Shown: positions 1-50,887 of the stretch, one piece after another
Position numbering within the stretch: the stretch's first letter is position 1
Layout: the number at the start of each line of letters is the position of its first letter
DNA from: Roseospira marina
GTDB taxonomy: Bacteria > Pseudomonadota > Alphaproteobacteria > Rhodospirillales > Rhodospirillaceae
Assembly: GCF_014197855.1 (NCBI RefSeq)
Contig: NZ_JACIGJ010000001.1
Span: 372,001 to 436,000 of the forward strand
Reading direction: 5' to 3'
DNA: 64,000 nucleotides
Made by a program: the position numbers and the translations under genes
Notes under the pieces: generated by a model
Databases searched by the model: none
Seen by the model: only the letters and a program-made list of their open reading frames with translations
Told to the model about the DNA's origin: nothing

Positions 1-622
1 GGATCAGGGTGGGCGCCGGTGAGTCCGCATCGGGGGCTGTGACCGGTGTGGGGGAGGCCGGCGCTTGGGTGGGCGACCGTGCGGGCGTGGCCGATGAGGG
101 CGTGGCCGGGGAGGGACCCTGGCCCGTCGTGCTGGTGGCGGCGGCCGAAGGACGAGTTGGTGGAACCGGCGCGGGCGACGATAGGGCGGATGGCGACGGG
201 GTCGATGGTGCCGAGGCCGGTGCCAGCGTCTCTGCGACCGGGCGCAGGCGCGGGGTCGGTACGACCATCGGTGCGCTCGGATCCAGGCGGGGCGTGGCGG
301 GCAGCCCGCCGGTCGGCGCGCCGGACGGCACCCTAGCCGCACCATCCGGCACGGGTCTCAGGTGAATGGTCCCGCCGTCGGAGGGCGGCCGCGGTGCGCT
401 GTCCAGGCTTCCCAGAATGCCCCCGACCGCTCCGGTCGCGGTGGTTCGGGCTCCGGTGTTCGCCGACAGGTCCCGAAACCCGGTGCCGGGCCCGGCGAGT
501 TCGCTGGCGCTGAGTCCGGCGGCCTGGACCGCCGGAAGCGGCACGGCGAGGGCGACCGCGCCGGCCGTCAATCCGCCGCGTATCCGACGCCAGAAACGTT
601 GATCTTCCATGGGTTCCGTCAT
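1..622 (-). CDS. Exported Pro/Ala/Thr/Ser-rich protein, 5' part only
   Basis: The minus strand is open from an ATG at 622 to the window edge, about 207 codons with no stop, so the gene is cut by the boundary. The N-terminus looks like a Sec signal peptide: a basic stretch (RFWRRIR, residues 9-15), a hydrophobic core (about 16-30) and an AxA-type site ending near residue 34 (AVQA). After that the chain is low complexity, with Pro, Ala, Thr and Ser dominating and many PAP/PTP/PSP patterns, as in cell-envelope linkers. No catalytic domain is visible in this part, so function is unknown. A second ATG at 610 could be the true start. A TATACT-like box lies just upstream at about 631-636. Confidence 0.55.
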   Translation of the reverse strand, partial: MTEPMEDQRFWRRIRGGLTAGAVALAVPLPAVQAAGLSASELAGPGTGFRDLSANTGARTTATGAVGGILGSLDSAPRPPSDGGTIHLRPVPDGAARVPSGAPTGGLPATPRLDPSAPMVVPTPRLRPVAETLAPASAPSTPSPSALSSPAPVPPTRPSAAATSTTGQGPSPATPSSATPARSPTQAPASPTPVTAPDADSPAPTLI

Positions 623-1002
623 GACGCGCGGAGTATAGGCAGGAACGGTCGGCCGGAACCATGGCTTTTCCGCCCCCGATCCGGCAAGGCCCGGCGTCGA
701 GCGGTCAAAAAAATGTGTCGCGGGAGCTCCGAGAACGCAGGGCGGAGTTTGAGGACGAAGCTGGTGGCGCTGCCGAAAACCTCTAGGTGGTGCGCGGTCC
801 GGGCCGGGGTGAGGCGCGTCGAGTGAGAGGGGCGCGAGAACACGGAGTTTAAGAACCATCATGATCTGTGAGGCAGCCGAAAACGGCAACGTCCGCCCGT
901 ACTTTAAGGACGACGACGTGCAGGAAGCCCGTACGCGGTGTGTCTCGGCGGCGGAGGCGTTGCCCATCTGCGACGAAAGCGCGCTCCCGCACATGCTGGC
1001 TG
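623..1002. other. No convincing gene
   Basis: About 380 bases between the edge gene and the IS remnant. Short open frames exist on both strands but none resembles a known family or has a clear ribosome binding site. The stretch from about 861 is open in the frame that later becomes the transposase orfB, but its protein does not look like an IS3 N-terminus. It is probably unrelated sequence joined to the element. Confidence 0.5.
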
Positions 1003-1416
1003 GGCGTGTCGGACGCCCAGCGGCTGAAGGCCCTGGAGGCGGAGAACGCGCAGTTAAAGCGGATCGTCGCCGACCCGCAGCTGGACATCGCGATGCTGAA
1101 GGAAGTGGCGTCAAAAAAATGGTGACGCCCGCCGTTCGACGGGAGGTCGCGGCGCATCTGGTGGCGGATCACCAGATGAGCCAGCGGCGGGCGTGCCGGG
1201 TTCTTGGGGTTGGGCGGTCGAGCGTGCGCTACCGTACGCGACAACCGCCAGATGGGCCGGAGCGGGAGCGTCTGCGGGCTCTGGCCGCAGAACGGCGCCG
1301 GTTCGGCTATCGGCGGCTGACGGTTCTGTTGCGGCGCGAGGGCGTTTGCATCAACCACAAGCGGGTCTACCGGATGTACACGGACGACGGACTGCCGCGG
1401 CGAAGAAGAGGGCGGC
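1003..1416 (+). mobile_element. IS3-family insertion sequence remnant (orfA 3' end and orfB 5' end)
   Basis: From 1003 to 1125 one frame gives the C-terminal heptad coiled coil of an IS3 OrfA (GVSDAQRLKALEAENAQLKR, ending EVASKKW). A second frame from ATG 1119 gives the N-terminus of OrfB, with a helix-turn-helix (SQRRACRVLGVGRSSVRYR) and the conserved RRFGYRRLTVLLRREG block, then stops matching near KRVYRMYTDDGL. The frames overlap at a run of seven A (1113-1119), the usual programmed -1 slip site of the family. OrfA lacks its N-terminal half and OrfB lacks the whole DDE catalytic core, so the element cannot move. Terminal repeats are not visible. Confidence 0.8.
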
Positions 1417-2003
1417 GTGATGGCCACCAAGCCCATCCTGTTCAGTGGGCCGATGGCCCGTGTGTTGCTGGACGGCAGGAAAACGCAGACGCGGCGGGCC
1501 CTGGCGCCGCAGCCGTTTTCGGATGCCTACTATGATGGTGATGTCGAAGCGGTCGTCACTCCCCCAGTCTCGGGTTGCTCCTATGTTGGCAGTCCCACAA
1601 AGGGGGCGTTCGGTTCACTGCCGCTGCTGTTGGCGGGGGCGCGGTGCTGGAAGATGTCCGCCTTCTGCCCTACGCCCCGGCCGACCGGCTGTGGGGGCGC
1701 GAGGTGTTCACGCTGGTCGGGACCGTGGACCCTGGATGGGTTCTGTACCGCGCCTCCGGCTACGAGGCCGAATGCGCGCGCCATGGGTTCGACACGCCAT
1801 ACCCGCCGGAAAGCGCCGTCAAATGGCGCCCATCGATCCACATGCCCCGCTGGGCGTCTCGCATCACCATGCCCGTCTATCGTGTGCGCGGAATCAAGCG
1901 GGTGCGCGCCCCCGCGACTGGCGCCGTCTACGGGACGCCAGGAATGAAATGCAGCTACCTCTTGCGCTGGCTCAAGACCGGGACGACCTCGTGCCCATCT
2001 TGA
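1417..2003 (+). pseudogene. Frameshifted phage-type hypothetical protein
   Basis: The first part (ATG 1417) reads MATKPILFSGPMARVLLDGRKTQTRR..., the signature start of a prophage protein family found next to phage morphogenesis genes. The matching downstream part (APADRLWGREVF ... KWRPSIHMPRWASRIT) lies in another frame that stays open to 2003. The frame must change between about 1600 and 1665, and a G5 run at about 1634-1639 is a likely point. The 3' end of the family also seems to be replaced. The gene starts right where the IS remnant ends, which suggests the insertion or deletion event lies here. Without a fixed frame the product would not be made. Confidence 0.6.
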
Positions 2004-2248
2004 CGGCTTTGGTCCAAGTCCTATCCGCCCTGCTGGCCGGGACGCCGCTACCGGACGCCGCCATGGATGCCTGCCGCACCATGGCCCTCGGGCAGCAGGC
2101 TGCCGAGAACACCCGCCAGCCCCAGGCCCAGCCCATCCAGGCACCGCCCAAGCTGGGGCTTGGCACTGACCGTCAAAGACACGCCCGCAAGCGCCCTAAT
2201 TTGCGGGTCGTGGGCGATCCCCGGCGGGACAAGGAGCCAGGGCGATGA
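1949..2248 (+). CDS. Small hypothetical protein, accessory region
   Basis: A 99-residue protein begins at ATG 1949 behind a GGA-type ribosome binding site and ends with a TGA that overlaps the next start (ATGA at 2245-2248), which supports translation coupling. The first half is a short hydrophobic/amphipathic stretch (LVPILTALVQVLSALLAGTP) and the second half is Gln/Pro-rich then basic (RQRHARKRPNLRVV). No family is recognised. The position behind a phage-type relic suggests prophage ancestry. It overlaps the tail of the preceding pseudogene in another frame. Confidence 0.45.
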   Translation: MQLPLALAQDRDDLVPILTALVQVLSALLAGTPLPDAAMDACRTMALGQQAAENTRQPQAQPIQAPPKLGLGTDRQRHARKRPNLRVVGDPRRDKEPGR

Positions 2249-2535
2249 GGCTTACCCGTTTCCTCCCCATGTACCTTGCCGCCGCCAGCCTCAGCGCCAT
2301 CCGCCGACGCACACCCGGCGCCTGGACCGTGGCTGCTGCAATCTGGCTGCCGCCCATCCTGCTGGCCTACCTTGTCGCATGCGGCGTTCCGGTGGGCGCC
2401 TGGGATGCGGCGAGAGAAGGGCGGCACGGTGCCGCCCTAGCCCTCTTCTGCCTCACGCTGGGACCGCTGCTCGTCCTTCTACTTCTCGGCCGTCTTGCAG
2501 GGGCTCAAGGCCGTGAGCCTCACGGATCGGATTGA
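2245..2535 (+). CDS. Small membrane protein, unknown function
   Basis: A 96-residue protein whose ATG overlaps the upstream stop. Two hydrophobic segments, about residues 27-47 (TVAAAIWLPPILLAYLVA) and 65-84 (ALALFCLTLGPLLVLLLLG), would make a hairpin in the inner membrane. The basic N-terminus (SAIRRRTPG) would stay in the cytoplasm. No family is recognised; a phage holin-like role is possible on shape alone but has no sequence support. The last 83 bases overlap the 3' end of the convergent minus-strand gene, which is unusual if both are expressed. Confidence 0.5.
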   Translation: MRLTRFLPMYLAAASLSAIRRRTPGAWTVAAAIWLPPILLAYLVACGVPVGAWDAAREGRHGAALALFCLTLGPLLVLLLLGRLAGAQGREPHGSD

Positions 2536-3025
2536 GGAACTTCTTCGCAATCCGATAGCGCTCAGGCGCCTCAACGCCGCCGTAAACGAAGGTCGTCTTT
2601 CCTTTCCGGAAAGCGTGAAAGCGGTTGGAATAGCTCCAACCTTCCTCAAGGTCGCGCGACCGCTTCGGGTCGGGTACAAAGAGGATTTCCCCCTCTCCGT
2701 CAGCCTTGGGCGTAATGTCCTTCAACTCTCCCTCCGGCGTCTCCCACACGCTGTGGAAGATCGCCTCAGCGCAGCTACGGCTGACCCAGACGGTCCAGCC
2801 GTAAACGACCCGGCCGCCGAAGCGCCGAACGGCCTCAGCCGTGTTGAGGTGGCAGTTCTCGGCGACCGCCCCCTCAAAAGGCTGCAAGGTCAAATACACC
2901 GCCTTCTCCCGGCTCAGGCTCCGGCAGAACTGCCCGACTTTGCCAGTCGCCTTCTCCGGCGTCGTCGGAATGGAAGCCATCAGGACTTCCATCATCTTTT
3001 CCATATCCATAAGATTGTAGTTCAT
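2453..3025 (-). CDS. Conserved hypothetical protein, CHxN-motif family
   Basis: A 190-residue protein. ATG 3025 is chosen because AAGGA sits about nine bases upstream; an in-frame ATG at 3160 lies inside an inverted repeat and has no such site. The core is NCHLNTAEAVRRFGGRVVYGW ... AEAIFHSVWETPEGELKDITP, a pattern I recall from uncharacterised proteins scattered in phage and mobile DNA. The paired Cys/His near residue 62 and the later FHSVW/ITP block are its invariant features. Function is unknown; a metal site or a thiol hydrolase would fit the Cys-His pair but this is guesswork. The gene is less GC-rich at its start than the neighbours, in keeping with transfer. Confidence 0.6.
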   Translation of the reverse strand: MNYNLMDMEKMMEVLMASIPTTPEKATGKVGQFCRSLSREKAVYLTLQPFEGAVAENCHLNTAEAVRRFGGRVVYGWTVWVSRSCAEAIFHSVWETPEGELKDITPKADGEGEILFVPDPKRSRDLEEGWSYSNRFHAFRKGKTTFVYGGVEAPERYRIAKKFLNPIREAHGLEPLQDGREVEGRAAVPA

Positions 3026-3158
3026 GAAATGATGTCCTTCTTCAAAGTTAAACTTCCGAAGATTGACGGAGGCTTTTTCAACCCCCGCCTTCCTTCGCAA
3101 GCAGTGCTGAGAAGAAGACCCAACCGCCCCGCCGGGGCGCCCCTCCGAGATTGTTCCC

Positions 3159-3178
3159 ATCGGACACGTATGTCCGAT
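3159..3178. promoter_or_regulatory. Perfect inverted repeat, candidate operator
   Basis: ATCGGACACGTATGTCCGAT has two perfect 8-base arms around a 4-base centre. It ends 5 bases before a good -35 box (3184) for the plus strand and lies 134 bases upstream of the minus-strand gene start at 3025, so a dimeric repressor bound here could control both directions. No regulator gene is adjacent. Confidence 0.5.
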
Positions 3179-3183
3179 TTAAC

Positions 3184-3211
3184 TTGACAAGGGGCCTTCG
3201 CCCCCTATCCT
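3184..3211 (+). promoter_or_regulatory. Sigma-70-type promoter for the hairpin RNA
   Basis: TTGACA (3184-3189), 16 bases, TATCCT (3206-3211). The -35 box matches consensus and the -10 box matches at four of six positions. No plus-strand protein gene follows, so the expected product is the structured non-coding transcript ending at the terminator at 3333-3358. Confidence 0.5.
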
Positions 3212-3217
3212 CCCGTA

Positions 3218-3358
3218 AGGGAGGTAAGGGCGTTATGCCCTGAGGACGTTGCCTCCAGGACATCTTTTCAAGTCATCAGGTCTTCACAGACCTGGATCAC
3301 TTTGAGATAAATGACCGCTGCGAAATGCAGCGAAGCCGCCCCGAAGGGGGCGGCTTTT
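3218..3358 (+). ncRNA. Candidate structured small RNA (tandem hairpins)
   Basis: No protein gene occupies this stretch, yet it is packed with short perfect stems. CCTCCC/GGGAGG with a GTAA tetraloop lies at 3209-3224, AGGGC/GCCCT at 3227-3241, CAGGTCT/AGACCTG with a TCAC loop at 3277-3294, CGCTGC/GCAGCG at 3316-3332, and a 10-bp stem with a T run at 3333-3358. A further GGGGC/GCCCC stem lies at 3191-3204, inside the promoter spacer. An alternative fold pairs GGAGGTAA (3220-3227) with TTGCCTCC (3249-3256). With a promoter upstream and a terminator at the end this fits a roughly 140-base transcript. It could instead be a DNA element such as a single-strand origin. No known RNA family was recognised. 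Confidence 0.4.
3333..3358 (+). terminator. Rho-independent terminator
   Basis: AAGCCGCCCC (3333-3342), loop GAAG, GGGGCGGCTT (3347-3356), with the T run reaching 3358. The T tract is on the plus strand, so it ends transcripts coming from the promoter at 3184. Confidence 0.65.
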
Positions 3359-3471
3359 GTGCGTCTGGGGCCTGAGTTTTCGGTTGCCCACCCTGACCAC
3401 CGCCAAGGTCGCCCTGCGCTGACTCGTGAGGGTCGCTTCGGGCTCGTTGGCCGTGGACAGCGTGGACACCC

Positions 3472-6400
3472 CTACCCGTCGTGCGGGAATCCAGGCAAGA
3501 GGAAGGCGCCCGACCGCTCCACCCGGCGGCGGTACAGACGAACCGGAGCCGTCGCCACCGGGCGGCGGGGCTTTAACTCACCCACTAGAATACGCATTGC
3601 CAGCCGGTCCATCTGATCAAGCATCCGTTCCCGCTTATCAGCGGACGCACGATGCGCCGCCAGGGCCAGCGACCACAGGCGGGCGTGCAGGCCGTTCTTA
3701 CGGTCGAAGCTGGGCAGCCGCAGGTGCTTGAAGACGTTGCTGCGCTGAATGCCGATAGTGTGGCTTTCGACATACTCTCGGACGAGGGAACAATTCAGCA
3801 TGCCGCACAGGAAATACGCCGTTTCCCGGTCCCATGCCTCGGCAAAGTAGACCTTGTGGTCTGGGACGTAGGGCTGCGGGCCGCCCCTTAGCGGAACCGC
3901 CGCAGTTTCAGCAACAGCGACTTCAAAGCGTCCCTGTTCCGGCCACATCACCTTGTAGGGGGCGAACGTGTAGGTTCCGGCGTTGTAAACCACGTAGGGC
4001 GGGGCATCGCTGGCACGCTGCCGCAGCTTGTACGTAGACCGCTGACTGAGGGCGGCGGTGTAGGTGCCAAAGTACTTGCGGAGGTTCCTAAGCCCGCCGA
4101 CCAAGGCGGCGGCGGCCTCGTAGTCCTGCCGCTTAATCCCAGTGTTCGGCACCAGAACGAAAACGTCAGGGTCCGCAGGCTCGAAGTGGCAGGCCGAGAA
4201 ATCGGCTGCACCCTTCACCAGCGGGAACAGGCAGTCAGGTTCAATCCAAAACGTGGAGGCAGGTTCAATCTTCCGGCGGTTCGGCCCCTTGCAGGCCTCC
4301 GGCCGGGTCTGCACCTGCACAAGGCCAGTCTTCGGGTTGTGGTCAAGCACCCGGACCATGAACAGGCCGTTGAGGTCCGTCGTGATCCCCTTCCGCCCCT
4401 GGACCCAATCGGAAACGCCACGAATAGCCCGCATTTGGTGAAAGCGGCCCTTTCTGAGAACCGCCCACGGCCCCCGCTTACCGTCAACGGGGCTGGCCTC
4501 CATTTCAGCGACGGCGACACGACCTGCGACCGTAGGCCAAGAGGCCTCAGCCGGAATAGTGGCAGTGTAGCCCTTCGCCTTGGTCCACGTGCGGTAAGGC
4601 ACCGGGTAGACAGGCGCCGCCGTCCCCTTGTGCAGCTTCATCAAGGCCGTCTTGTTGGCGACGTTCGGAAACGGCTTGAGCAGCTTCAAATCATCCACCA
4701 CGACCGGCGCTAGGTAGGTGCTGCCATCCACTTTGAAGCTGCGGAACCCTTGGGATGACGGCGACTGAAAGTGCGTCTGCGTGATCAGGAAGACCAGCGA
4801 ACCGCCGTCCTTCAACCACTTGTCGCCCACGGTGTAGGTGATCATGCCGCTGATATCGAGTTCATTGCCGCCGTGATACGGCGAGTCCGAGAATATCTCG
4901 TATTGCTGACACGTGGGCTTGATGCGCTTCCGGTAAGCCTCCGGCAGGTTCGACCACCGAACCCAGGGCGGATTGCCCACGACCACATCAAACCGACCCG
5001 CCGTAGCCGACCAGAAGAAATTTCGGACGATGCGGAACCAGATGCCGTTCCAGTTTTGCCGGTGGAGGCTCAGAACCCGGTCATACGTGGTCTTCAGCGG
5101 CTCCGCCCACTCCTTCAACTCCGTAGGCGTCAAGATGCCCTTGAGCATGGTTTCAGCGGCCGGGTACTCGTCGTCCGCCTCGACCCGTTCGCCCATCACC
5201 TCGAACACGTCGTCAAGGCGCTGGCGGTCAAAGGCGAGCTTAGCAGGGAGCGTGATCTTCAAATCAGCGTGCGTGCTGCCGATCTCGTACTCAACCACCT
5301 TCACGCCCTTGCCCGGCGCCTGGGCAGGCGAATAGACCGCATCGGCCAGAAGGACCGGAAGCTCCACGGGATGCCCCTTTGCAGCGTGGAGCAGGTCCGC
5401 AACAGCGATCAGGAAATTGACACGGGCCGATTGGACCGCCAGCGGGTTGAGGTCGAACCCCCAAACGCTGCTTGTCAGATGGTCTAGAGTTTCTTCCGCA
5501 GACCAGCCTTCCGCCGCCGCCCGTTCCCGTTTCCGCCGGATGAACTGAAGGAGGAAGGTGCCGGAGCCGCACGTGGGATCGAGAGCCCGGAGCAGCAGCC
5601 AGTCAGCAGCGGATGCCCGCTGGCAAGCAAGGTCCGCCAGCCAATCAGGCGTGTAGAACTCACCCAGGGCCTTCCGCAGGGCTTCCGGCACAAGGGCCTG
5701 ATAAAAGGCCTTCAGAACGTCCTTGGAGCGGGCCTCATCAAGGGCGTCCATGCGGTACAAGGCGACCTGAACAAGAAGGCTGCGGATGCTCTCTGCAATC
5801 TGCTTCCGCCCTTTCGGCGATAGGCTGGCATCGCCGTACCATCCGAAAATCGCTTCCTCTACGAAGCCCCGAATCTGGGCCGCCTGGAAGAACCCGCTTC
5901 GCTCAAGCTCACTGTCGAGCCGCTGGAAAAGCTGGAAATCGTCGGGCAGCTTCAGCAGGGACTCGCAGAAATCCGGGTGGGCTGTCAGTCCAAATTCGCT
6001 GACAATCTCGGCGGCCAAAATTTTGATGATGAAGGCGTTGTAAGTGTGGATCACGAACAGCAGCGCCGGAACTTCATCATCCCCCAGGGCCGCCGCCCGC
6101 AGCGGCACCGCCCGGCGGATTTCGGCCACCTGAGCGGCCGAGAGGTCGGCCACCTGCCCGAAGAGCGTGCGCCATTCTTCAAACAACATCTTGATCTTGT
6201 TGTTCTTGGGATCGAGAAGGTGGGCCTCAAGCTCCCGGACCAAGGCTTGCATCATCCCATCGCCCACGGTCGAACCGTGGCCGAAATCCTCAATGAGATT
6301 GTCGGCGGTCACGGCCCGGCGCTCTGCATCAACGAGCGCCTGAGCAACGAGGTCAACCGCCTTCTCAGAGAACGGGATCAGGGAGCGGTGCTTGATCTTG

Positions 6401-6744
6401 CCGCCCTTGCGAAAGGCAAAGCACACATGGTCGCCGTCAATAGCGATCCCGATATAATCCTCTTCCGGCAACCCCTCGTCGGCCGCCCGCCGGATGATGT
6501 ATTTGTCGAGCCGATCAAAGATGGCCTCTTTGAAGGCGGCGCTCGTCTCGCTGCCGTGAAAGAGCCCCTTGTCCTTGAACTCGATGATGACGTTGTTGCT
6601 GTGGGCGTCGTTCCGCCCCCGCTCCGCCTTCACCGATACATCAAGCTCAGCCCGAAGGTGGCTCACCCAGCTAATGCGGACCTCTTCCTCATTGGCCCAG
6701 CCCGGCGCATCCGCCTTGATCTTATCAAAGAGCCCCTTGTACAT
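3472..6744 (-). CDS. Single-chain restriction-modification enzyme (type IIG-like, Eco57I-type methylase)
   Basis: A 1090-residue protein. The N-terminus has a PD-(D/E)xK-type nuclease pattern, D46 then E55-F-K57 (IIEFKDKG). After a helical linker comes an N6-adenine methyltransferase: GEFYTP (361-366), the S-adenosylmethionine loop DPTCGSGTF (389-397) and the catalytic NPPW (591-594). The remaining 500 residues are presumably target recognition. Cutting and modification in one chain is the type IIG plan, so no separate specificity or helicase subunit is needed and none is seen nearby. Phage defence is the expected role. BREX PglX proteins share the methylase half but are longer and normally sit among brx genes. 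The first ATG is used, behind a GAGGGGG ribosome binding site. Confidence 0.8.
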   Translation of the reverse strand: MYKGLFDKIKADAPGWANEEEVRISWVSHLRAELDVSVKAERGRNDAHSNNVIIEFKDKGLFHGSETSAAFKEAIFDRLDKYIIRRAADEGLPEEDYIGIAIDGDHVCFAFRKGGKIKHRSLIPFSEKAVDLVAQALVDAERRAVTADNLIEDFGHGSTVGDGMMQALVRELEAHLLDPKNNKIKMLFEEWRTLFGQVADLSAAQVAEIRRAVPLRAAALGDDEVPALLFVIHTYNAFIIKILAAEIVSEFGLTAHPDFCESLLKLPDDFQLFQRLDSELERSGFFQAAQIRGFVEEAIFGWYGDASLSPKGRKQIAESIRSLLVQVALYRMDALDEARSKDVLKAFYQALVPEALRKALGEFYTPDWLADLACQRASAADWLLLRALDPTCGSGTFLLQFIRRKRERAAAEGWSAEETLDHLTSSVWGFDLNPLAVQSARVNFLIAVADLLHAAKGHPVELPVLLADAVYSPAQAPGKGVKVVEYEIGSTHADLKITLPAKLAFDRQRLDDVFEVMGERVEADDEYPAAETMLKGILTPTELKEWAEPLKTTYDRVLSLHRQNWNGIWFRIVRNFFWSATAGRFDVVVGNPPWVRWSNLPEAYRKRIKPTCQQYEIFSDSPYHGGNELDISGMITYTVGDKWLKDGGSLVFLITQTHFQSPSSQGFRSFKVDGSTYLAPVVVDDLKLLKPFPNVANKTALMKLHKGTAAPVYPVPYRTWTKAKGYTATIPAEASWPTVAGRVAVAEMEASPVDGKRGPWAVLRKGRFHQMRAIRGVSDWVQGRKGITTDLNGLFMVRVLDHNPKTGLVQVQTRPEACKGPNRRKIEPASTFWIEPDCLFPLVKGAADFSACHFEPADPDVFVLVPNTGIKRQDYEAAAALVGGLRNLRKYFGTYTAALSQRSTYKLRQRASDAPPYVVYNAGTYTFAPYKVMWPEQGRFEVAVAETAAVPLRGGPQPYVPDHKVYFAEAWDRETAYFLCGMLNCSLVREYVESHTIGIQRSNVFKHLRLPSFDRKNGLHARLWSLALAAHRASADKRERMLDQMDRLAMRILVGELKPRRPVATAPVRLYRRRVERSGAFLLPGFPHDG

Positions 6745-6774
6745 GCCGCCCCCTCGGGTTGTCCTGCGGCGGCG

Positions 6775-6803
6775 TTTATAGCCGAGACGGGGTTAGAGGC
6801 CAA
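6775..6803 (-). promoter_or_regulatory. Promoter for the restriction-modification gene
   Basis: On the minus strand: TTGGCC (-35, 6803-6798), 17 bases, TATAAA (-10, 6780-6775), about 30 bases upstream of the ATG at 6744. The -10 box is strong and the -35 box is partial. Confidence 0.45.
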
Positions 6804-6840
6804 TCAAGGACTGCCCAGGGCGACGCCCACCGCCTGACCT

Positions 6841-6868
6841 GTCCCACAGCGGCGTGGGACGGATTTTT
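6841..6868 (+). terminator. Terminator-like hairpin
   Basis: GTCCCAC (6841-6847), six-base loop, GTGGGAC (6854-6860), GGA, then TTTTT. Read on the plus strand this is a good intrinsic terminator, but no plus-strand gene feeds it. It may be a relic of a deleted gene, or it may stop antisense transcription into the tRNA. Confidence 0.4.
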
Positions 6869-7077
6869 AGCCCTCCTTCCTCGTCTTGCGCTCATCTATG
6901 CGGCAAGCGCCCGCCCGAGTCCTCGCAGACCCACCGAACAAGTAGAGGATATTCGGCGCTGACGGCGTTCTGCGGGTTTGCGCCCCGGCGCCGAGAGGCG
7001 CCCAAACCCAACGACTTGCGGAGCCCGAGTCAAAGGCGTGGGACAGATGTGGGACAGAAGATGTGGGGCGGAAAAGG

Positions 7078-7112
7078 AAAAGCCCCCGGAAACGCAAGGT
7101 TTCCAGGGGCTT
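7078..7112 (-). terminator. Terminator of tRNA-Met
   Basis: Immediately 3' of the tRNA on the minus strand, AAGCCCC-T-GGAAAC pairs with GTTTCC-G-GGGGCTT across a five-base loop, followed by T-rich sequence. This is a clear intrinsic terminator for the tRNA transcript. Confidence 0.7.
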
Positions 7113-7114
7113 AA

Positions 7115-7191
7115 TGGTAGCGGAGGAGGGACTTGAACCCCCGACACGCGGATTATGATTCCGCTGCTCTAACCAGCTGAGCTACTCCGCC
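7115..7191 (-). tRNA. tRNA-Met (CAT), elongator type
   Basis: 77 bases with a 7-bp acceptor stem (GGCGGAG/CTCCGCT, one mispair), a D arm, anticodon stem GCGGA/TCCGC around the loop ATCATAA (anticodon CAT), a T arm with GTTCAAG, and an encoded CCA. The sequence resembles the elongator tRNA-Met of alphaproteobacteria; tRNA-Ile2 also has CAT as its gene anticodon and cannot be fully excluded by eye. It has its own promoter and terminator. Its 3' end faces the accessory region. Confidence 0.9.
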
Positions 7192-7206
7192 CCGGAAGGG
7201 ATCGGC

Positions 7207-7235
7207 TTTATACGGGCGCTCCCGTCCCCTGTCAA
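7207..7235 (-). promoter_or_regulatory. Promoter of tRNA-Met
   Basis: Minus strand TTGACA (7235-7230), exactly 17 bases, TATAAA (7212-7207), about 16 bases before the tRNA 5' end. Near-consensus sigma-70 promoter. Confidence 0.75.
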
Positions 7236-7415
7236 GCGTGCGCGAAGGGGGTTTTGGCCGGTGTGCGATGCGGTCGTAAAACGAAACAAAGCGGGTGTGC
7301 CGGACCTGGGGTCACTGACCGGGAATGGCGGCGGCGAACTGTGGGCTGCCATTTGGGACCACCACATCGGTCATCGGACGTGAACGATAGGGCGGAGCCG
7401 GATCGACGCCCGGCT

Positions 7416-9242
<1,827 letters not shown>

Positions 9243-48619: not shown

Positions 48620-50887
48620 ATGAGCGCACAGAATCGTCGCACCCTGCATCGCCGCCTCCTGCGCATCGGTCTCTTGGCCCGGCGCGTGCGGTTGACCCGC
48701 GCGCTGACCCTGGTCTTGGCGGTGTCGGCCGTGATCTCGGTGGGGGCGACGGCGGCAGTTCTTATGGGCGTCGGGCCGACGGTCAACGATCCGGCCGTCA
48801 TGCTGATCCTCCTGAACGTCAATTTGGTCATCATGCTGGCCCTGGGCGTGCTGGTGGCGCGCCGGCTGGTCAAGGTATGGATGGCCCGGCGCAGCGGTGG
48901 CGCGGGCTCCCGGTTGCATGTGCGGCTGGTCGTGTTGTTCGGTGTGGTGGCGGTCACGCCGGCGATCCTGACCTCGGTGTTCTCCATCCTGATCTTTCAG
49001 GCCGGGGTGCAGTCCTGGTTTTCGTCCCGTGTCTCGACGGCGTTGGATGAGTCGTTGTCGGTGGCGCAGGCGTACCTTCGCGAGCATCAGCAGGTCATTT
49101 CCGGCGACGTTTTGGCCATCGCCAACGACCTGAACCGCGATTGGCTGCGGGCCAGTCGGAATCCGCAGAACCTTAATCAGTTTCTGAGCGCGCAATCGGC
49201 TTTGCGGAACCTGACCGAGGCCGTCATCTTCGGCAAGGATGGCAAGGTGATCGCGCGCGCCGGTTATACGTATTCGCTCCAGTTCGAGCAGGTCCCGTTC
49301 TGGGCCATGGATCGCGCGGACACCGGCGACGTTGCGATCCTGACCGGCGAGAACGACGACCGCGTGCGGGGGCTGGTACGCCTGGGCGTGGACAGCCTGA
49401 ATCCGCTGTATCTGTATGTCGGTCGTTTCGTCGATCCGCAGGTCCTGGGCGCGATCGAAAGCACCGAGGCGGCGGTCAATCAGTACCGCGAGCTGGAAGG
49501 GCGCCGATCGGGCTATGAACTGACGCTGTCGATGATCTTCATCATGGTGTCGGTGCTGCTGCTGCTGGCAGCGGTGGCCGTGGGCCTGACCATGGCGACG
49601 CGGCTGGTCCAGCCGATCATGGCCTTGATCGAGGCCGCAGACCGGGTCCGCCAGGGCAACCTGCGGGTCCGGGTACGGGAGATCGTGGCCAACGACGAGG
49701 TGGCATCGCTGTCCCGGGCGTTCAACCGCATGACGGCCCAAATCGAGGCCCAGCAAAAGAGCCTGCTGGCGGCCAACCAGGAACTCGACGAGCGCCGCCG
49801 GTTCACCGAAACGGTTCTGGCCGGGGTGTCGGCCGGCGTGGTCGCGTTGGATCGCGACGGTCTTGTCACCCTGGGCAATCCGCCGGCCAGTCGGCTGCTG
49901 GGGGAGGCGCTGGACGACTGGTGCGGGCGGCCCGTGGACGTGCTCATGCCTGCCATTGCGTCCTTGATCGAGCAATGCCGCGCCCGGCCGGACCGGCCGG
50001 CGCAGGCCGAAATGAGCCACGGCCAGGGCGGTCGGACATTGACCCTGCTCGTGCGGGTCAGCGCCGAGCGAGACGAGGACGGCGACATTCTCGGCTATGT
50101 GCTGACCTTCGATGACATCACCGAACTTCAACAGGCTCAGCGCAAGGCTGCCTGGGCCGATGTCGCGCGCCGAATCGCGCACGAGATCAAGAATCCGCTG
50201 ACCCCCATCCAACTTTCGGCGGAGCGCCTGAAACGCCGCTATCTGAAGCAACTGACCCACGATCAGGACACCTTCGTGCAGTGCACCGACACCATCGTGC
50301 GGCACGTCGGGGACATCGGGCAGATGGTGGACGAGTTCTCCGCCTTCGCGCGGATGCCGGCACCCTCGATGCGGCCGGAACGCCTGGACGAGATCGTGCG
50401 CCAGGCGGTCGTCCTGCAACGCACCGCCTATACCCGTATCGCGTTTCATACGGATCTGCCCGAGGCGGCGGTTAAGATGCACTGCGACGCCCGCCAGATC
50501 AGTCAGGCCCTGACCAACCTGCTCAAGAACGCGGTCGAGGGGATTGACGGCCGTCTGGAAAAGGAAAAGGATCAAGCAACTGAACCTGGGATCATCACGG
50601 TCCGCGTCGAAGAGCGGTCGGACGAGACCGCGATTGTTGTGGAAGACAATGGAAAGGGCCTTCCGGACGGAGACCGTAACCGCCTGACCGAACCCTATGT
50701 CACCACGCGCAGCAAGGGCACCGGGCTGGGTCTCGCCATCGTCCGAAAAATTCTGGAAGATCACGGAGGATCGCTGCGGCTGGATGACCGTCCCGGCGGC
50801 GGGGCGAGGGTGTCGATGGTCATTCCACGACCGGAGGAACTTGCTCCCGGCGATCGGGACGCGGCGGTCACGGCCGATGCGCGCTGA
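48620..50887 (+). CDS. ntrY: Transmembrane sensor kinase NtrY
   Basis: A roughly 755-residue sensor. Three hydrophobic segments lie near the N-terminus (about 28-48, 56-80 and 94-116). A periplasmic domain of about 190 residues, another membrane helix, HAMP (RLVQPIMALIEAADRVRQGN) and PAS domains follow. The kinase core has the phospho-acceptor His in RRIAHEIKNPLTPIQLSAERLKRRY, NLLKNAVEGID (N box) and TRSKGTGLGLAIVRKILEDHGG (G2). The family pairs with NtrX in alphaproteobacteria and responds to redox or nitrogen state. A GTG at 48587 is an alternative start; neither start has a strong ribosome binding site. Confidence 0.93.
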   Translation: MSAQNRRTLHRRLLRIGLLARRVRLTRALTLVLAVSAVISVGATAAVLMGVGPTVNDPAVMLILLNVNLVIMLALGVLVARRLVKVWMARRSGGAGSRLHVRLVVLFGVVAVTPAILTSVFSILIFQAGVQSWFSSRVSTALDESLSVAQAYLREHQQVISGDVLAIANDLNRDWLRASRNPQNLNQFLSAQSALRNLTEAVIFGKDGKVIARAGYTYSLQFEQVPFWAMDRADTGDVAILTGENDDRVRGLVRLGVDSLNPLYLYVGRFVDPQVLGAIESTEAAVNQYRELEGRRSGYELTLSMIFIMVSVLLLLAAVAVGLTMATRLVQPIMALIEAADRVRQGNLRVRVREIVANDEVASLSRAFNRMTAQIEAQQKSLLAANQELDERRRFTETVLAGVSAGVVALDRDGLVTLGNPPASRLLGEALDDWCGRPVDVLMPAIASLIEQCRARPDRPAQAEMSHGQGGRTLTLLVRVSAERDEDGDILGYVLTFDDITELQQAQRKAAWADVARRIAHEIKNPLTPIQLSAERLKRRYLKQLTHDQDTFVQCTDTIVRHVGDIGQMVDEFSAFARMPAPSMRPERLDEIVRQAVVLQRTAYTRIAFHTDLPEAAVKMHCDARQISQALTNLLKNAVEGIDGRLEKEKDQATEPGIITVRVEERSDETAIVVEDNGKGLPDGDRNRLTEPYVTTRSKGTGLGLAIVRKILEDHGGSLRLDDRPGGGARVSMVIPRPEELAPGDRDAAVTADAR

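Follow-up and report, generated by a model that had tools for sequence, protein, structure and literature searches.

What is the row of hairpins at positions 3159-3358 of the window (the whole 64-kb stretch of DNA analysed here, bases 372001-436000 of a 549,745-base contig in a 4.6-Mb genome)? A first-pass annotation had read it as seven inverted repeats with their own promoter, operator-like repeat and T-tailed terminator, and had offered a mobile-element regulatory RNA, an antitoxin RNA and a single-strand replication origin as explanations. As argued here, the array is most suitably described as a candidate small RNA locus that carries a phage-type operator.

The repeats themselves could be recovered by script, 7/7 within 3159-3358 at the positions that had been given, with stems of 5-8 bp followed by stems of 6 and 10 bp, all perfect and with loops of 4-5; an eighth hairpin was found close to a minus-strand terminator-like site. 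The elements of the array and the two genes that flank it are the following:

2453-3025, minus strand: small gene of unknown function, with similarity to PHROG 37148
3125-3139, no strand assigned: eighth hairpin, 6-bp stem and loop of 3, outside the original list
3159-3178, plus strand: perfect operator-like palindrome ATCGGACA-N4-TGTCCGAT, 8-bp stem, 5 nt upstream of the -35 hexamer
3184-3211, plus strand: promoter-like site TTGACA-16-TATCCT, from a promoter scan
3186-3209, minus strand: spacer hairpin, a perfect 5-bp stem on the plus strand (3191-3204) and a 10-bp helix on the minus strand
3209-3224, plus strand: hairpin with GTAA loop, 6-bp stem
3218-3360, plus strand: predicted non-coding RNA of about 143 nt
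3227-3241, plus strand: hairpin, 5-bp stem
3277-3294, no strand assigned: hairpin, 7-bp stem, core of a longer imperfect hairpin
3316-3332, no strand assigned: hairpin, 6-bp stem, terminator-like on the minus strand
3333-3360, plus strand: hairpin (10-bp stem at 3333-3356) followed by TTTT, likely intrinsic terminator
3472-6744, minus strand: type IIG restriction-methylase (PADLOC E 9e-225), complete-looking and converging on the array

The array is far denser than chance, as had been claimed: it has seven hairpins and 47 paired positions, whereas 2000 dinucleotide shuffles averaged 0.72 hairpins and never exceeded 4 (24 positions). When 200-nt segments were slid along the 64 kb, 1/3191 had seven hairpins (start 3161) and 0/3191 had 47 positions. 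The excess of hairpins is real and exceptional within the 64-kb window.

The array lies in a patch (about 860-7110) comprising an IS3 remnant, a split phage gene, the small gene and the type IIG enzyme, which is indeed the restriction-modification neighbour noted at first. The phage gene (PHROG 874, 1417-2003, plus strand) is split over two frames, a sign of decay, and the start of the small gene at 3025 was picked from the start of its similarity and an upstream purine-rich stretch. Left of the patch is an LptD-like gene, and right of it are tRNA-Met and a GlmS-like gene (7416-9242), both genes being named from a reading of their frames. Continuous DNA similarity to the LptD-like gene in five sister species fades at window position 14-28, within its 5' part, with two more pieces in L148 that reach 355 and 669; on the tRNA-Met side similarity ends at 7114-7115 in 5/5 sister species, two of whose stretches are shorter than 1.3 kb, and L080 shows a GlmS match that is distant (34.5%) as well as a single piece of 107 bases. 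Past the fade point, tblastn (E 1e-15) with the window's frames of at least 120 aa between -999 and 30000 matched none of them in the sister-species stretches (four of about 12 kb and one of 1.4 kb). Since flank similarity ends on both sides, the patch sits where these species have other neighbours. No exact repeat of at least 12 bases of 7081-7191 was found in the patch or the left flank, so that integration at tRNA-Met is not supported. Just past the tRNA-Met end, at the patch edge, 7034-7072 carries three imperfect 14-nt direct repeats (AGATGTGGGACAGA).

The restriction gene has 39 relatives at 48-61% identity, spread over Proteobacteria, Firmicutes and a small number of further groups, which suggests frequent horizontal transfer. 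Beside these 39 genes, BLASTN with the array returned only 15 bases in L024 (E 0.32) and covariance models returned nothing; the top downstream hairpin score was 26 in the 36 relatives with enough sequence, against 44 here. Among viral contigs, no relative of the restriction gene or of the small gene was confirmed.

Frames in or across the array gave no significant Pfam, PHROG or NCBIfam match (best E 0.16) and those behind 3211 no protein-family match, so that nothing here matches the decayed protein gene that would have refuted the first-pass annotation. The Rfam comparison suggested there brought no known family above the gathering cut-off anywhere in the window, and a permissive search of 3000-3480 gave nothing below E 2.9.

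Our preferred reading, held tentatively at a probability of roughly 0.42, is that the array is an intrinsically terminated small-RNA gene of about 143 nt that sits in a decayed mobile patch and has an orphan operator of phage type. From TTGACA-TATCCT, RNA polymerase would initiate plus-strand transcription close to 3218, and synthesis of the strongly folded RNA would end at the 3333-3360 hairpin. The palindrome upstream of the -35 hexamer would be a repressor operator of the phage hicAB-like promoter kind, which suggests that the RNA, probably a regulatory small RNA belonging to the decayed element, was formerly switched by a phage or mobile-element repressor whose gene is now gone from the locus. 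We infer the transcript, its strand, its control and its regulatory role from hairpins far above chance, a promoter-like site and a terminator hairpin on one strand, the likeness of operator and TTGACA to viral hicAB promoters, and the lack of any protein-family signal.

A promoter-like site followed by a terminator-like hairpin, without a protein gene, is the layout of a small-RNA gene. Indeed, the array has what intrinsically terminated bacterial small RNA genes have: a promoter-like site, stable stems in a non-coding stretch (here about 143 nt) and a terminal hairpin with a T run. It differs from them in having no Rfam family, no relative, a T run of only four and a strand assignment that is a prediction. 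The promoter announced earlier is present at 3184-3211, though sites like it are not rare, 2 being present in 6.7 kb where 0.8 +/- 1.1 are expected. The terminator is likewise accepted in part: its hairpin type recurs in 14 other genomes of the class (BLASTN), but only four T follow the stem pairs, a weak tail, and it is missing from the plus-strand list of the terminator scan. Folded as plus-strand RNA, 3216-3364 has an MFE z of -5.46 and 3150-3364 one of -7.33. A scan of 319 non-overlapping plus-strand windows (15 shuffles each), on whose grid 3159-3358 does not fall as such, gave the lowest z at 49459 (-5.5) and the second lowest at window 3259 (-5.0). A duplex-energy target search over 44 gene starts, which ignores accessibility, found the neighbours unremarkable (z -1.1 for the small gene, start 3025, and +0.9 for the restriction gene). 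The probability of a small RNA is kept down by the better folding of the minus strand, by hairpins that precede the start and by mutually exclusive pairings. A start near 3218 leaves all of hairpins 3159 and 3191 and part of 3209 upstream, so that the predicted RNA does not explain them; by eye, GGGAGG at 3219-3224 can pair with either CCTCCC at 3209-3214 or CCTCC at 3252-3256.

Even when an RNA has no relatives, the pattern of operator and promoter can offer a clue to its orphan non-coding locus. The pattern TCGGACA-N4-TGTCCGA-N6-TTGACA is found in five viral contigs, four of them distinct (L074 and L075 look identical where printed), and in 5/5 a short gene follows and a second copy of the palindrome lies over the promoter. 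The frame behind the short gene, scanned in three contigs, matches HicB_lk_antitox at E 4e-7, 3e-5 and 2e-3, the first above the Pfam cut-off and the other two below it. The short protein gave no significant Pfam match; we take it to be HicA-like from gene order, size and sequence features. With a spacing of 3-9 bases the pattern occurs in seven viral contigs, adding L094, with hicA-like and HicB-like frames by eye, and L093, with other genes; a hicA-like frame thus follows in 6/7 (five distinct). The control, one scrambled half-site of the same composition, occurs in 0 viral contigs.

The array has in common with the phage hicAB-like promoters (L072-L076, L094) the palindrome TCGGACA-N4-TGTCCGA and a TTGACA 6 nt on (8 nt in L094); in contrast to them, it has an unrelated hairpin in place of the second operator, and neither hicA nor hicB follows the promoter. 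Half-site, spacing and distance to the -35 hexamer support, at the level of sequence, a layout like that of operators at phage hicAB-like promoters, and the operator-like repeat proposed at first is upheld in this sense. HicB antitoxins are described as repressors that act via palindromic promoter operators (PMC11594946, PMC10865869), and the titles and abstract openings among the matches listed describe no HicB-controlled RNA. A quorum-sensing palindrome that shares letters (PMC12114271) was set aside, its layout being different.

Relatives of the L074 HicB occur in 19 of the 60 genomes searched, including 3/5 sister species (41% identity in G005, 39% in G001 and 37% in G003). The genome studied here is among the 19 by one weak match (E 6e-4) within a 674-aa frame, and the same search found no clear phage-type HicB in it. 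CGGACA-N4-TGTCCG is absent from 10/10 HicB-relative loci examined, and more distant HicB proteins therefore probably use other sites. The palindrome is exact only at 3159-3178 in its own genome, which has 19 other two-mismatch sites against 16 for a reversed control, and no other genome among 385 of the class contains the pattern at up to one mismatch.

The first alternative to weigh, which we consider doubtful, is a structured intergenic RNA on the minus strand, within a transcript that leads out of the restriction gene in the direction of the small gene. It would serve either as a 3' UTR that protects the mRNA of the restriction gene or ends it, or as a structured leader for the small gene; the promoter hexamers on the plus strand would then arise incidentally from the two arms of the 3186-3209 helix. 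Folding is more extreme on the minus strand, whose MFE z for 3159-3358 is -9.6 against -7.4 on the plus strand (0/200 shuffles as low on each strand) and whose z for 3040-3362 is -8.65. Moreover, the 3186-3209 helix is extended by two G.U pairs, to 10 bp, on this strand only, and the terminator scan lists minus-strand sites at 3333-3315 and 3136-3119. Against this, the scan of 600-7300 shows no minus-strand promoter-like site, G.U pairs over 3120-3362 (4 minus, 3 plus) do not separate the strands, and the restriction gene does not have the small gene as its neighbour in other genomes: 0 of the 39 loci of its relatives contain a small-gene match at E 0.01.

Relatives of the array were sought widely. 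Up to eight candidates per genome were scored by BLASTN in 98 relatives, which yielded the own locus and one match, in L002, judged to be chance since it sits in a long sensor-kinase-like reading frame (by a reading of that frame). In 385 genomes of the class (up to two candidates per genome, E 0.01), 16 matches fell in 14 other genomes; 15 of them lie entirely within the terminator hairpin (window 3327-3365, query 148-186), and the remaining one covers query 7-35. BLASTN found no relative of the array in phages or E. coli genomes, and in plasmids nothing beyond pieces of 22-31 bases (E 0.2-0.6). A search of viral contigs for two exact patterns taken from the RNA gave 0 and 0 occurrences. Two covariance models, R1 for the plus-strand RNA and R2 for the minus-strand array, are weak because each was built from one sequence; they were run over 317 genomes of the order with up to 10 and 7 candidates per genome, respectively, and recovered the own locus and chance-level matches only. 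Among the latter, an R1 match in L071 was rejected, as the model there pairs with the end of an RplQ-like frame (again by reading the frame) and with that frame's terminator, and three R2 matches with E 0.007-0.009 per genome are about what 317 genomes would give by chance. As far as these sequence searches reach, the array is a single orphan, matched by no known family searched, and with no homologue to align, covariation cannot support its structure. A mobile-element regulatory RNA thus survives from the original proposals as the best single reading, but with no homologue, covariation or Rfam match, and with a minus strand that folds at least as well.

An array conserved nowhere among the genomes searched is also consistent with a functionless pile-up at the synteny break, in which GC-rich palindromes, the remnant of an operator and two or three terminators came together without any function as a unit, an explanation that we place next and regard as unlikely. 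Of the eight hairpins, as many as three resemble terminators and another is an operator, and the patch, with its IS3 remnant and split phage gene, is one where sister species differ in neighbours. However, decay should erode perfect stems, and seven are perfect; moreover, the four hairpins at 3191, 3209, 3227 and 3277 are neither operator nor terminator.

A bolder proposal, which we would call a long shot, is that a toxin-antitoxin-type operator beside the type IIG enzyme has been captured and now drives a structured RNA in place of a toxin. Control of this RNA would lie with a phage repressor or a HicB-like antitoxin; the RNA would be released without the repressor and silenced when a phage supplies one. 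The antitoxin RNA of the first-pass annotation is not supported: unlike type III toxin-antitoxin RNA, the array has no tandem repeat (2900-3600 searched), and no ToxN-like or other toxin gene was recognised nearby in the scanned frames. Least probable of all, and very much so, is a DNA-level structure (single-strand origin, packaging site or transposon end), for although the array folds well as single-stranded DNA (z -7.25 for 3120-3362) and perfect stems serve both strands, the scanned frames hold no replication initiator, relaxase or transposase beyond the IS3 remnant, and BLASTN finds no second copy in the genome. The array resembles the hairpin-rich intergenic regions of filamentous phages, which likewise pack several hairpins and a promoter into about 200 nt, but no phage initiator or coat gene was recognised here.

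If the array is transcribed, the defence gene would have next to it a structured RNA that is unannotated and covered by no current Rfam family, and the promoter of this RNA could respond to incoming phage repressors. If it is not, it would be an ordinary accumulation of terminators with an operator remnant.

The palindrome alone, present in 34 viral contigs, is not diagnostic because it is also found within NRTxxSDL frames or arrays, and only the form with TTGACA was therefore used as evidence. A frame in the window resembling this phage NRTxxSDL motif (E 0.09) was judged to be chance. In L095, L110, L118 and similar viral contigs, ATCGGACA-N4-TGTCCGAT lies in a reading frame and, by eye, spells NRTxxSDL, and selection there may act on either the palindrome or the protein motif. 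Another viral contig, L105, carries at least four near-identical CGGACA/TGTCCG palindromes in a row at about 3150-3275, perhaps a replication or partition site.
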